The notes below the pieces were generated by a model, which saw nothing but the letters and a program-made list of their open reading frames with translations, was not told the DNA's origin and did no database searches. Positions 4,568 through 34,580 of a DNA stretch of 34,580 nucleotides are shown here, piece after piece. Source of the stretch: an uncultured Gammaproteobacteria bacterium (GTDB lineage: Bacteria; Pseudomonadota; Gammaproteobacteria; Pseudomonadales; Pseudohongiellaceae); NCBI GenBank assembly GCA_903889815.1, contig CAISYX010000336.1:1-34580 (forward strand). The letters run 5' to 3'. The translations under genes and the position numbers were made by a program. Numbering within the stretch: the first letter of the stretch is position 1; each line of letters begins with the position of its first letter.

Positions 4568-4745
4568 GGGTCGGAGTTGCCTAGAGCATTAGCCAGTCAA
4601 AAGTGTTCTTGAGCCGATATCTGTTAACCTGGAGGCTCCTCGCCAGGTGCTGTTGTGCATGTCCGCCCGACGGAAAGCCTTATGCGCCTCTGGAGTCACC
4701 ACCTGAACCTTGGGTTCAGGACTATTTTGGTAGCGGTGCTCCGGG
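4568..4745 (+). ncRNA. ssrS: 6S RNA (SsrS)
   Basis: Between zapA and ygfA (classic ssrS position); TATATACT -10 just upstream; 6S-like blocks ttgagccgatatctgttaacctggaggctcc and cacctgaaccttgggttcagg; ends approximate. Confidence 0.85.
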
Positions 4746-4775
4746 TAACTTCATTCTCTCTTTCCTGCCATTGTC

Positions 4776-29001: not shown

Positions 29002-29023
29002 TATGCGCATAGGCTATGCGCAT
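29002..29023. promoter_or_regulatory. Tandem operator of ccdAB
   Basis: TATGCGCAT-aggc-TATGCGCAT; two copies of palindrome ATGCGCAT (29003-29010, 29016-29023) just upstream of ccdA. Confidence 0.65.
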
Positions 29024-29044
29024 CAGGCACAAGGAGCAATCATC

Positions 29045-29290
29045 ATGAATTACGCGTTCAACCCGCAAGCCCCCAAGAAGCCCACCAATGTGAGCATCAA
29101 CAGCGACTTGCTGGAGAAAGCGAGGAGCCTGAACATCAATCTATCCGCGACATTGGAGCACGCCCTGGCCGAGCATCTGAAGGCCGAGCAACGCGCCCAA
29201 TGGTTACGCGAAAATGCCAATGCCATTCAGGCCTATAATCAATTTGTGGAAACCAATGGCACCTTCAGTGACAGCGTCAGGAAATTCTGA
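29045..29290 (+). CDS. ccdA: CcdA-family antitoxin
   Basis: KKPTNVSINSDLLEKARSLNINLSATLEHALAEHLKAEQRAQWLRENANAIQAYNQFVETNGTFSD; AAGGAG SD. Confidence 0.93.
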   Translation: MNYAFNPQAPKKPTNVSINSDLLEKARSLNINLSATLEHALAEHLKAEQRAQWLRENANAIQAYNQFVETNGTFSDSVRKF

Positions 29291-29607
29291 TGAGCCAGTT
29301 CTGTGCGTACAAGAACACAAGCCCGGCAAGTCGCACTCTGTATCCATTCCTGCTGGAAATACAGAGTGACTTGCTTAGCGGCCTGCGCACCACCCTCGTC
29401 ATTCCGCTGACATCTGCAAAGATCGCTGCTCCGATCAGCCTCTCCAGGCTCAACCCAACACTCACACTGGATGGCAAGCACTTCACGGTCATGACGCAGG
29501 ACATCGCTGGCATTGACCGCTCACAGCTCGGCCCGCTGGCGCATGATCTGACGGCTCACCGTGCCGAAATTGTGGCAGCGGTGGATTTTGTGCTGTTTGG
29601 CATCTAA
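29290..29607 (+). CDS. ccdB: CcdB-family toxin
   Basis: TGATG overlap with ccdA; YPFLLEIQSDLLSGLRTTLVIPL...SRLNPTLTLDGKHFTVMTQDIAGI...FGI C-terminus. Confidence 0.93.
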   Translation: MSQFCAYKNTSPASRTLYPFLLEIQSDLLSGLRTTLVIPLTSAKIAAPISLSRLNPTLTLDGKHFTVMTQDIAGIDRSQLGPLAHDLTAHRAEIVAAVDFVLFGI

Positions 29608-29761: not shown

Positions 29762-30823
29762 TTACAAAAGCTCAGCCTGCAGCACACCGCGCCCGGCGCG
29801 CGCCCGCAACTGGCCGCAGCCGGCGTCCACGTCCTGCCCGGCGCTGTTGCGCACCTTGGTCAGCACATGGCGACTGTGCAGGTAGGTGACGATCTCGCGG
29901 ATACGTTCAGCATCCGGACGCTCGTAGCGCACCCCATTGCTGGCATCCAGCCCCGTGCCTTCCAGCGAATTGAAAGGGATGACGTTCAGCAGTGCGTACT
30001 TGCCTTTGAACAGGCGCAGGATTTCGTCGAGCTCGTCCTGCCCGTCGTTGATGCCCTTCAGAAGCGTCCATTGGTACTGGATGGGATAACCCGTCTCGCG
30101 CGCGTACGCCTCACCCAGTTCAATCAGTTCGTCCGGCGCAATTTTCGGCGCGCGGGGCAGCAGGTGTTCGCGCAAGTCAGCCTTGGTGGTGTGCAGGGAC
30201 AAGGCCAGTGCCGGGCGCACGCGTTGCCGTGGCAGCAGGTCGAACACGCGGCGGTCGCCCACCGTGGAGAACACCAGATTCTTGTGGCCGATGCCGCCCT
30301 CAGTGCCCAGCAGAGTGATGGCCTCCAGCACATTGTCGAGATTGTGGGCAGGCTCGCCCATGCCCATGAACACCACTTTCTTCACCGGGCGCAGCCGGCG
30401 CGCGAGCACCACCTGTGCCACGATCTCCAGGCTGCTCACCTGACGAATCAGGCCGCTCTTGCCCGTCATGCAGAAGCGGCAGCCCACAGCACAGCCCACC
30501 TGGGTGGACACGCACAGCGCGTCGCGCGGCAGCAGCACGCTTTCGATCATCTGCCCGTCGGCAAGCCTGACCAGCAAGCGCACCGAGTCATCGGCACCGG
30601 GATGTTGGGAATGAATCTGCGCCACGGCATCCAGCGCGTCGCTGAGTGCAGGCAAGCCAGTGCGCACCGACAGCGGCAGGAAGTGTTCCTGTGGCTGAAG
30701 GCGCGGCCCTGCGCCCAACGCCTTGCCGTTGAGCCACGCCCGCAACACCCGGCCACGGTGGACGGGCAGGGCCTTGAGGGTGAGCAGGCGTTGGTCGAGG
30801 TCGGCAAGAGTGAGTAACGGCAT
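29762..30823 (-). CDS. RlmN/Cfr-like radical SAM RNA methyltransferase
   Basis: CAVGCRFCMTG (CxxxCxxC), VVFMGMGEPAHNLDNV, STVGD, ALSLHTTKADLREHLLP, SAGQDVDAGCGQLRA. Confidence 0.92.
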   Translation of the reverse strand: MPLLTLADLDQRLLTLKALPVHRGRVLRAWLNGKALGAGPRLQPQEHFLPLSVRTGLPALSDALDAVAQIHSQHPGADDSVRLLVRLADGQMIESVLLPRDALCVSTQVGCAVGCRFCMTGKSGLIRQVSSLEIVAQVVLARRLRPVKKVVFMGMGEPAHNLDNVLEAITLLGTEGGIGHKNLVFSTVGDRRVFDLLPRQRVRPALALSLHTTKADLREHLLPRAPKIAPDELIELGEAYARETGYPIQYQWTLLKGINDGQDELDEILRLFKGKYALLNVIPFNSLEGTGLDASNGVRYERPDAERIREIVTYLHSRHVLTKVRNSAGQDVDAGCGQLRARAGRGVLQAELL

Positions 30824-31039: not shown

Positions 31040-31867
31040 ATGAAAGCGTTTACACATTTGATGTTGGCAGTTGTCACCCATGCGCTCTTTGCTCAAGCCG
31101 CGTTGGCGCAGGACGCAAATACAGCGTTGGTGCCGCTGCCCTCTATCGACGACTTCACCAAGGGCAATGACGGATTCAGCTTCGGGCTGGGCCTGGGGCT
31201 TGAATACGAATCTGCCTATGAAGGGTCGGATGAATTCGGCTTCGAAGCCAGCCCCGCTGGTGCGGTGCAATGGCGCCGAGGGGATGACATTTTCTACTGG
31301 GCCGGCGAGGCGCTGGGGTGGCGCGGACTTCGTTCTGACACGTGGCTGTTCCAGGCCACCGTGGGCTTCGATGAAGGACGCGAAGAAGGGGATTCCGATG
31401 ACGGACGATTGAACGGACTCGGTGATTCAGGAGAGAGCACCGAAGTCGTGCTGCAGGCGCGGCGTGCGTTCGATGCCGACTGGCGCTACTGGCTGGATGG
31501 CCGAGTCGTCACGGGTGACAACGGCAGCCTTGGTCTTTTTGGCGTGGGGCGACGCTTCGGCGAACAAGCGGACGGTTCCGGCTCTGACTTTTCCATCGTG
31601 GCGGTTTTTCACGACAGCGATCGCGTCAATAACAATTTTGGCATCACTGCCGCGCAGTCAGCGGCGTCCGGACTGAAGCAGACGGAACTGAGCGGAGGAT
31701 TTCGCTCGATTGGCTTCAACTACACGTATCGCAATTACATCAATGACAACTGGCAGCTGTTTGGCGAGGTGCTCTACGAGCGTTTTGGCAGCGACGTGGC
31801 AGATAGCCCAATTACACGCAGCAACTATGAAGCGGAAGTGGGCGTAGGGTTCATTTACGCGTTCTAG
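31040..31867 (+). CDS. MipA/OmpV family outer membrane protein
   Basis: Signal peptide; LGLGLEYESAYEGSDEFGFEASPAGAVQWRRGDDIFY...SPITRSNYEAEVGVGFIYAF. Confidence 0.88.
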   Translation: MKAFTHLMLAVVTHALFAQAALAQDANTALVPLPSIDDFTKGNDGFSFGLGLGLEYESAYEGSDEFGFEASPAGAVQWRRGDDIFYWAGEALGWRGLRSDTWLFQATVGFDEGREEGDSDDGRLNGLGDSGESTEVVLQARRAFDADWRYWLDGRVVTGDNGSLGLFGVGRRFGEQADGSGSDFSIVAVFHDSDRVNNNFGITAAQSAASGLKQTELSGGFRSIGFNYTYRNYINDNWQLFGEVLYERFGSDVADSPITRSNYEAEVGVGFIYAF

Positions 31868-31907
31868 GGCGCGTAACGGAGTGCAGTTCACTACATTGTC
31901 AGGCGCC
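31868..31907. other. Weak attC-like inverted repeat at the array edge
   Basis: ggcgcgtaacggagtgcagttcactacattgtcaggcgcc: imperfect inverted repeat with GTAAC/GTCAGGC ends. Confidence 0.3.
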
Positions 31908-31975
31908 GAATCTGACATGAATGTCATTGTCATGGAAGAAACAAGGTTCCAGTGTGACAAGCGCAACAATATCGT

Positions 31976-32060
31976 CAGTAACACTCTGCAACTGGCTTAT
32001 GGCCATGGCTTCTGCGTGCTGGTTTCCTCAATAGCGAGCCGCATGTAGCTGTTGTCAGGC
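31976..32060 (-). other. Degenerate attC-like site 3' of the monooxygenase gene
   Basis: Minus strand GCCTGACAACAGCT...GAGTGTTACTG; imperfect inverted symmetry; core GCCTGAC differs from RYYYAAC at one base. Confidence 0.4.
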
Positions 32061-32067
32061 CGCTGCG

Positions 32068-32439
32068 CTACGGACCGACGCATAGATTGGGTACCGTGAG
32101 CCGCGTGAAGAGATGAGGGGACGCCACGGCACTGGAAGGATAGTGCCCAAGCGCCTGCTTGAACTCGGGATGGTTGAACGCCGCCCGAAAATGGGCCACG
32201 GACTCCCACAACGCGTAGTTCATGAATACCGTGCTTCCTGCAATGCCTTGATGCAACTGCGTTGAGATGTAGCCTGGCTGCTGTTTCATCCAGTTCGCAT
32301 CGGCTTCCCATGCCTTCAACAGGGCTGGGATTTCTTCCGCTGCCACCTGAAAGACGTTCACCAATACAACAGGTGAGACGTCGGTATTGATCTGCTGAAA
32401 AATCGGGACGTTTTGGTCCAGTGGCTTGAGTTGTAGCAT
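32068..32439 (-). CDS. Antibiotic biosynthesis monooxygenase (ABM)-like protein
   Basis: PVVLVNVFQVAAEEIPALLKAWEADANWMKQQPGYISTQLHQGIAGSTVFMNYALWESVAHFRAAFNHPEF. Confidence 0.88.
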   Translation of the reverse strand: MLQLKPLDQNVPIFQQINTDVSPVVLVNVFQVAAEEIPALLKAWEADANWMKQQPGYISTQLHQGIAGSTVFMNYALWESVAHFRAAFNHPEFKQALGHYPSSAVASPHLFTRLTVPNLCVGP

Positions 32440-32449
32440 GTGGTAACTC

Positions 32450-32677
32450 CTATGGTTGTCTTGTGCTGGAACCGTACTTCAGAACTTCGGAGGCTCTGCA
32501 TGTCACTGGGTTCAATTGATAATCTCCACTGTGCTTGATTTCATCTCGTACGAATACGAAGCACGCTCTGGCAATCTCTACCAGGTCATCACCGCCACTC
32601 GACAGCGCGAGGGCTTTTCTCACCACTTCAGGATGATCCGAGTCTACATACTTGCCTGGCTTCAGGAACTCATTCAT
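32450..32677 (-). pseudogene. Truncated transglutaminase-like protein (N-terminal part only)
   Basis: MNEFLKPGKYVDSDHPEVVRKALAL...FVFVRDEIKHSGDYQLNPVTCRASEVLKYG then abruptly SSTRQP*; the catalytic Cys region expected after KYG is absent. Confidence 0.65.
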
Positions 32678-32696
32678 CTAGATAATTTCTCTGGAG

Positions 32697-32760
32697 TGCT
32701 AACGCAGAGCATCAGCCTCCGCCGTGCCGAAAGCGGTCGGCCTGCATGCGGTTGTTGGGC
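32697..32760 (-). other. attC recombination site
   Basis: Minus strand GCCCAACAACCGCATGCAGGCCGACCGCTTTCGGCACGGCGGAGGCTGATGCTCTGCGTTAGCA: RYYYAAC at 5' end, GTTAG at 3' end, imperfect stem. Confidence 0.75.
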
Positions 32761-32783
32761 CGCCTTGCTTGGTCGATGACAAT

Positions 32784-33263
32784 CTACTGCGATTCTCTTG
32801 CATCCCTATTTGCCTTGTAAGTACTCCACACAGACAGAACCAGCATGAACACTGCCAGCGGCAAAATAATTTGATTACCAATTGCGCCGGGAGGGGGATG
32901 GGCAAATGTGACTGGCTTCAAATATCCAACCAGTTCGCGCAAAAGAACTTCCAGAATGAGCATCAGGTACATGAATGACACTAGCGACCTGTACCGAAAG
33001 ACAACCAGCAACTGAATCACAGCAAAGAGCAACTGCGAACTCCCCCACAGACCAAATGCAAAGATAATTCCGTCCGCACCAGCCACCGAGAGATCCATTC
33101 CGGCGATGCTACCCGCTCCGCCATCTGGAGAGAGTAGATGGATGCAACTTCGTACGGTACTGACGACAGCAAAAAAGGCGAACACGTAGAATGGCAGTTT
33201 CACTCCACGGATGGTGTTATCAATTGGAACAGGCAGGATAGTTTGAAAAATAGCTTGTGGCAT
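32784..33263 (-). CDS. Small membrane protein, probably 4 TM helices, cassette-borne
   Basis: Hydrophobic stretches FYVFAFFAVVSTV, GIIFAFGLWGSSQLLFAVIQLLVVF, SFMYLMLILEVLL, IILPLAVFMLVLSVW; flanked by two attC-like sites. Confidence 0.65.
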   Translation of the reverse strand: MPQAIFQTILPVPIDNTIRGVKLPFYVFAFFAVVSTVRSCIHLLSPDGGAGSIAGMDLSVAGADGIIFAFGLWGSSQLLFAVIQLLVVFRYRSLVSFMYLMLILEVLLRELVGYLKPVTFAHPPPGAIGNQIILPLAVFMLVLSVWSTYKANRDARESQ

Positions 33264-33344
33264 TTTGTCTCTTCGAACTCAAAGTTACTGGGCTTGGCTT
33301 AATGAACATACAGACTGGTTGTTTTACAGGTCACGATTGGGTCT

Positions 33345-33416
33345 GGCTAACGATCAAGCTCACCGGCGGCAATGGAGCGCAGCGAAATTGTCGTCGGGTG
33401 CAGCGCCTTGTTAGGC
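33345..33416 (-). other. attC recombination site
   Basis: Minus strand GCCTAACAAGGCGCTGCACCCGACGACAATTTCGCTGCGCTCCATTGCCGCCGGTGAGCTTGATCGTTAGCC: GCCTAAC...GTTAGCC with imperfect inverted symmetry. Confidence 0.85.
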
Positions 33417-33559
33417 ATTCTTGAGACTCATTGGGGAAAAAAGTCTAGATGTTGTCACGAAGCGCTTGATGGAGAGATCCTCATCATCTTTTGACATATC
33501 TCGAAGTATCCATCCAACCGGGTTTCTGGCAAACGTCTTTGCCCCTCCGACAGCTACGT

Positions 33560-34450
33560 TTACTGACCAGTCACTTCGCGCAATAAATCAAGCGCTCTGC
33601 GCTGAGTATCGGCGGTCGCCTCGGGATCGTAACGATGCGGCAACAGATCAAAGTCAGCCTTGTTGTCGAACCAGTGGGTTGCCCCAGCATATTCGATGAA
33701 TTCCGACTGCGCGCCACTTTCGCGCAGTTTGGCCATGCGCTTCTGACACGGCTCGAACGGAACATTTTCATCGCCCGTTCCCATGAACACGAGCGCCCGG
33801 GTCCCGCTGGGCAACGAACGCGTGTATGAATGGCTGCCGAAGCCGCAATACGGATAGAAGGCAATGATCGCCCGGAATTGTGCTGGCTTGGGCGCACGCC
33901 AATCGAGCAGGTTCGGCGGACGCTTGTTCAGGCTGACGAAGTGGAGCAGGTCCCAGACCGTCCAGCCTCCATGACTCCATCCTGCCAAGACGATGTTTGA
34001 TTGATCGACGACGGGCGGGAATTCCAAGCGATCCAATGCCACCGCAATGTCGCCAGCCCGCTCGAAGCCGTAGATGCCTTCGCCCTCACATGCGACGGCC
34101 TCGATCGCCTTGGGGTCGGTCAAGCCACGCGCGGCAAAGCTATCCACATATAAGACTGCGTAGCCGGCTGCCATGAAAACGGCCCGCCATCGCTCATGGT
34201 GAGGACGCCAGCCGAGACATCCTGGCGCCATCACTACCATCGGAACCGGCACCACGGCCGTTTTCGGCATAGTCAGGGTCACATGGGGCGCTAGCGTTCT
34301 CCAGAGCTCGTCGCTCGATTGCGCCTTGCTCAACCAGCGCGCGGAGAATGTAGTCACACCGTCCATCAGCGAGCTAGCCCATACCAGCGCTACGCACGCA
34401 GCCAGCACCAATACACCAATCCATAATTTGGCATGTTGCTTTAGCGGCAT
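33560..34450 (-). CDS. Dienelactone-hydrolase-like alpha/beta hydrolase with N-terminal TM/signal anchor
   Basis: VLAGWSHGGWTVWD (GxSxG), VFMGTGDENVPFEPC, ATHWFDNKADFD; start at 34450 because the longer ORF start (34492) would cross the cassette boundary at 34474. Confidence 0.85.
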   Translation of the reverse strand: MPLKQHAKLWIGVLVLAACVALVWASSLMDGVTTFSARWLSKAQSSDELWRTLAPHVTLTMPKTAVVPVPMVVMAPGCLGWRPHHERWRAVFMAAGYAVLYVDSFAARGLTDPKAIEAVACEGEGIYGFERAGDIAVALDRLEFPPVVDQSNIVLAGWSHGGWTVWDLLHFVSLNKRPPNLLDWRAPKPAQFRAIIAFYPYCGFGSHSYTRSLPSGTRALVFMGTGDENVPFEPCQKRMAKLRESGAQSEFIEYAGATHWFDNKADFDLLPHRYDPEATADTQRRALDLLREVTGQ

Positions 34451-34467
34451 GTATCGTCCTCGCGCGG

Positions 34468-34517
34468 GCCTAACATTTGTATAGTGCGCCAACGCACTAT
34501 TTGAACAGCATATGGCC
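34468..34517 (-). other. Candidate attC/attI junction upstream of the hydrolase cassette
   Basis: Minus strand ATAGTGCG-TTGG-CGCACTAT hairpin followed by ...ATGTTAGGC (consensus GTTRRRY); left core poorly conserved. Confidence 0.5.
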
Positions 34518-34580
34518 GGAGTCTACCCGCCTTTTTCCGGAAAGAACAATCACTTGATCGCCATACGCTGTCGCGGCGTC
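34497..34580 (-). CDS. C-terminal end of an upstream cassette gene, truncated by window edge
   Basis: Open minus frame to the window edge: ...DAATAYGDQVIVLSGKRRVDSGHMLFK*; stop lies in the attC-like hairpin. Confidence 0.35.
   Translation of the reverse strand, partial: DAATAYGDQVIVLSGKRRVDSGHMLFK

Follow-up and report, generated by a model that had tools for sequence, protein, structure and literature searches.

A cassette array headed by attI at the rlmN–ovoA locus and related attI platforms without an adjacent integrase gene across the family

We consider it highly probable that the right-hand end of the DNA analysed here belongs to a sedentary chromosomal integron, of which it holds the part nearest attI and which in this genus lies between rlmN and ovoA, and that the same attI module, found elsewhere in the family without intI, is there most simply served in trans. 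The window is the entire contig G000:C336 (34,580 bases) of a draft genome of 2.69 Mb in 429 contigs (86% complete). Read along the minus strand, the array runs from a probable promoter through attI, a hydrolase cassette with its attC and a membrane-protein cassette with its attC to a truncated cassette, and degenerate distal genes close it, ending at mipA and rlmN (Table 1).

Table 1. Coordinates of the array, its recombination sites and its flanks in the window
Feature	Position	Strand	Basis or remark
Putative cassette promoter Pc (TTGTTC, 18 nt, TAGACT)	34520-34549	-	by eye
attI core: palindrome AGTGCGTTGGCGCACT, spacer, R box GTTAGGC (34468-34474)	34468-34501	-	homology to intI-adjacent sites
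Cassette 1 gene, dienelactone-hydrolase family	33560-34450	-	PF01738, E 2e-14
attC of cassette 1	33345-33416	-	covariance model E 3.2e-4; score 37.7; bottom-strand fold
Cassette 2 gene, 159-aa hydrophobic protein	32784-33263	-	same cassette at 95% in G007:C2
attC of cassette 2	32697-32760	-	covariance model E 0.015; homology to G007:C2 breaks at core
Cassette 3 remnant, first 75 aa of a transglutaminase-like protein	32450-32677	-	full-length homologue, L056 1136-1876
ABM-domain (antibiotic biosynthesis monooxygenase-like) gene, distal array	32068-32439	-	PF03992, E 3e-12
mipA/ompV-like gene, distal flank or reversed cargo	31040-31867	+	PF06629
rlmN, chromosomal flank of the locus	29762-30823	-	radical SAM domain; also array flank in G010, G013

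attC sites were sought with a covariance model (R1) derived from 31 attC, all taken from other genomes and none from the window; it was run with filters off, and its E-values are rough because calibration was shortened. Up to E=10 it gave exactly two matches in the 34,580 bases, at 33345-33416 and 32697-32760. The earlier note had named these two sites as attC and had tied the array reading to covariance-model matches there; both were matched with the same end points, both on the minus strand, and the claim was not refuted. A second score, combining box motifs with R/L pairing and trained on 22 sites of relatives, reached 37.7 for the attC at 33345-33416. Scores of at least 30 are expected 0.008 times per window, as estimated from 257 Mb of random sequence with the same dinucleotide content. 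The attC at 32697-32760 scored 18, which alone is not significant, and its assignment therefore draws on the covariance model and on comparative evidence. Its R'' box is atypical and its R boxes pair at 4/7 positions; the L boxes are fully paired, with a single extrahelical G between them. The bottom-strand folding proposed earlier was seen at 33345-33416, where the plus (bottom) strand pairs the R and L boxes; folding energy by itself did not distinguish attC from shuffled sequences. The window thus shows the arrangement of an integron cassette array, attC sites with paired R and L boxes following genes of the same orientation. Two further sites that had been read as degenerate attC were discarded: neither 31976-32060, which scored -1.0, nor 31868-31907 was matched by the covariance model.

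Every gene between attI and mipA lies on the minus strand, in agreement with the single orientation proposed at the outset. The segment 32699-33352 recurs at 95% identity in another species (G007:C2), with homology ending at both core sites. There the copy of cassette 2 is flanked by an acetyltransferase-like gene and, at its opposite end, by an alpha/beta hydrolase cassette. Such recurrence among different neighbours, with breaks at both cores, is the signature of a cassette that has moved, and it marks the region as an integron cassette array. The cassette 2 protein had no match in Pfam and PDB searches and belongs to no known family. In G009:C338 (L046 4115-4594) the gene for this membrane protein stands alone between ordinary genes, with attC undetected. 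Within the window no attC was found for the cassette 3 remnant or for the ABM-domain gene. A plasmid search returned no relatives of the membrane protein and only distant ones of the hydrolases, so mobile integrons are not indicated.

The mipA gene, earlier taken for the left edge, does stand at the distal end of the array. It may nevertheless be reverse-oriented cargo rather than the chromosomal edge, given that a 77% homologue, likewise reversed, directly follows an attC in an array of another genus (G068:C5). Another homologue lies at an array end in G010:C22. Three genomes thus have mipA homologues (in the window, in L181 and at L049 12786-13558) within an array or at its end, in the opposite orientation to the cassettes.

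The GTTAGGC at 34468-34474, previously listed as a junction, is present on the minus strand but is the R box of an attI and not an attC junction. A third attC at this position was dropped in favour of attI. All 34 bases of 34468-34501 agree with G003:C16:481-514, where a broken integron integrase gene starts about 300 bases away. In G013 and G004, too, a full-length intI is found about 300 bases from the motif GTGYGNNNGCRCACTATACAAATGTTA. Judged by this homology, an attI adjoins the first cassette, as in a complete integron. The putative Pc boxes recur as the same pair, equally far from attI, in G000:C79 and G007:C52, and the segment may act as a promoter; a consensus promoter scan did not call it.

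In relatives, the rlmN–ovoA locus carries both arrays and integrase genes. intI is convergent with ovoA in G003, G004, G005, G011 and G013. In G010, a 10-kb interval with 11 predicted attC separates rlmN from ovoA, and in G013 a predicted attC array lies on the rlmN contig while the intI–ovoA contig starts beside attI. The window carries rlmN, the array and attI; intI, if any, would fall in the gap before ovoA. Occupation of the same chromosomal locus in related species is typical of a sedentary chromosomal integron. These results uphold the integron-type array, its cassette orientation and the prediction of intI to the right, as attI sits at the right end and the intI of relatives lies about 300 bp beyond the core. 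The contig stops 106 bases past the attI core, before any intI position could show, and in this genome ovoA is truncated where contig C251 ends. The missing intI is thus no evidence for the CALIN (an attC cluster lacking an integrase) that the earlier note had offered as the alternative; with attI 106 bases from the contig end and two attC present, that class cannot be concluded. The gene is truncated or missing at this locus in G003, G009, G007 and G010, so intI may or may not stand there in the present genome. The integrase gene of G003 (L044 796-1497) has an in-frame deletion of the C-terminal catalytic part. A CcdA/CcdB toxin-antitoxin pair lies at 29003-29607 on the plus strand, beside rlmN near the far array flank.

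An attI motif search over 137 genomes of the family, mostly draft metagenome assemblies with contig ends often at attI, found 44 sites in 23 genomes, against 1 match for the reversed-pattern control. Two divergent copies at a phosphofructokinase locus brought the total to 46 sites in 24 genomes. Same-strand attC occur within 4.5 kb at 27 of the 38 sites with at least 1.2 kb downstream; in all, 63 attC downstream of attI sites were on the same strand and 0 on the opposite one. intI adjoins 7 of the 46 sites. At another 35, the upstream DNA is free of it over 2 kb or more. Twenty-one of these 35, in 14 genomes, head same-strand attC arrays and are orphan platforms by sequence. A stretch of about 60–130 bp upstream of the attI core recurs, and motif and upstream module are conserved at sites without intI. 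The genome of the window has a second such module, C79 (L042 7809-7923), which lacks intI, lies beside a phosphofructokinase gene and heads an alpha/beta hydrolase gene. The clearest case is G004, which has a full-length intI with attI at ovoA and, on a different contig, a second attI at the head of eleven attC. In G230, which belongs to another family of the order, intI and attI share one contig, and 13 predicted attC (11 at E<0.01) follow an attI on a different one. The genomes in which orphan arrays occur together with full-length intI are G004, G011, G013, G072 and G230. No recognisable integrase was found in the orphan-bearing G012, G006 and G066, and several genomes that carry orphan attI have either no integrase or just one of another type; some orphan arrays may be relics.

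A few sites have unusual arrangements. In G001:C2 (L209 7740-7847) an attC that lacks its final core passes straight into an attI-like site; such a hybrid may illustrate the way in which attI modules spread. Between them, G068:C5 and G068:C9 (L181, L182) show two attI modules 4.4 kb apart and also an attI lying within an array, flanked by attC on both sides. In Shewanella sp. 1CM18E (L131 5119-5145) the attI motif occurs with neither intI nor a model-detected attC nearby.

Five orthologous platform pairs in which no intI is seen (in one member, G006:C26, over only 586 bases upstream) were compared on either side of the core: identity is 80-93% over the 100 bases that precede it and 50-52% over the 100 bases that follow, against 49% for random pairs. 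The attI flank is thus kept and the first cassettes differ. The phosphofructokinase-locus pair has a common upstream region without intI and different first cassettes. Conversely, one hydrolase cassette begins at the core of both G000:C79 and G009:C88, platforms with unrelated flanks. The drop in identity at the core and the sharing of this cassette argue for exchange of cassettes at orphan attI sites. The most parsimonious view is that the ancestor shared by G000 and G007 already had a phosphofructokinase-locus module without intI; exchange in trans would then be the simplest account.

The attI module of the window itself matches C79 at 84% over about 113 bases, and the resemblance to C79 and G007:C52 over this length (84-87%) compares with only 34 bases for the ovoA-locus module of G003. 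This suggests that the window platform could itself be an orphan, an attI-led array whose adjacent intI was lost or never present, as at C79, a reading to which we assign somewhat less than an even chance. The loss or breakage of the ovoA-locus intI in G003, G007, G009 and G010 speaks for it, as does the finding that no integron integrase was found in the G000 assembly (draft, 86% complete). However, the rlmN flank matches a locus that carries intI in relatives such as G013, and the contig ends before intI could show, with ovoA also cut off. The window platform may also be dead, because the G000 assembly yielded no integron integrase and the ovoA-locus gene is deleted, truncated or absent in several relatives; only two attC in the window are intact. 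That we are dealing with an attG-type insertion or with small genes lined up by chance, and with no integron platform, we regard as very improbable: the genes are short, the distal sites weak and one attC degenerate, yet a conserved attI module, attC matched by a covariance model and cassette boundaries at core sites contradict it.

The orphan platforms of the relatives could alternatively be fossils, left by integrons that were duplicated or broken and that lost their own intI by deletion after the cassettes had come to differ; nothing would then act on them in trans. IntI pseudogenes and fragments in G003 and G009, the three orphan-bearing genomes without a recognisable integrase and the common decay of intI in Xanthomonas integrons (PMC12444791) are consistent with this account, which we hold to be possible but doubtful. 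In contrast, the phosphofructokinase-locus pair lacks intI upstream yet differs in its first cassettes, a pattern seen in five pairs; motif and upstream module are still conserved at sites without intI; and five genomes carry full-length intI alongside their orphan arrays.

We return to the reading of a sedentary integron with further platforms served in trans. Integron integrases insert circular cassettes at attI and excise them through folded attC bottom strands; here the gene for the enzyme would lie immediately beyond the end of the contig or at some other place in the genome. The attI modules that stand at other chromosomal places without intI would also acquire and shed cassettes, for which an integrase working in trans is the simplest explanation, and we infer that one integrase may serve several platforms. 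Carried further, the integron of the family would be a one-integrase, many-platform system, with attI modules dispersed across the chromosome as separate capture and expression sites at conserved loci and cassettes supplied in trans; we judge this extension to be evenly balanced between right and wrong.

Integrons with similar features have been described. The sedentary integron at the ilvD locus of Xanthomonas (PMC12444791) likewise occupies a conserved locus, with attI and attC alike within the genus and intI often decayed, but here the locus is rlmN–ovoA and genomes hold several attI platforms, most without intI. Xanthomonas also has CALINs at conserved loci (PMC12444791). The orphan arrays resemble CALINs in having attC and no adjacent intI; in contrast, they carry their own attI, many with the conserved upstream module, and the missing intI of the window may be a contig-end effect. 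One Shewanella prophage (M16-3) contains a CALIN with its own attI (PMC9892861). The attI core has the same form, GCGCATGCGCACTAATAAAATGTT, and there too one array has intI and one does not, each with attI, but that is a single prophage case, whereas here chromosomal loci recur in many genomes. In mobile integrons, attI fragments occur inside cassettes (PMC12901181). Such Delta-attI-type cassettes (PMC12901181) and attG insertions (discussed in PMC12444791) are alike in that the integrase uses attI pieces inside arrays or sites outside integrons; here, however, what recurs is a stretch of about 60–130 bp upstream of the core, whereas those consist mostly of a piece of 14-18 bases or follow a loose genomic consensus. 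In the open-licence literature searched we found no report of recurrent chromosomal orphan attI platforms, which does not prove that none exists.

Arrays with their own attI may be integron platforms that need only an integrase in trans, which offers a testable account of the origin and continued activity of integrase-less cassette arrays. The relatives have several attI docking sites per genome, most without adjacent intI, and one enzyme may serve many capture sites. If so, searches for attI only beside intI, or only for clinical-class attI, would miss platforms.

An Rfam scan of the window, which returned no attC family, gave a single match, a 6S RNA (SsrS) at 4575-4751 on the plus strand (80 bits).
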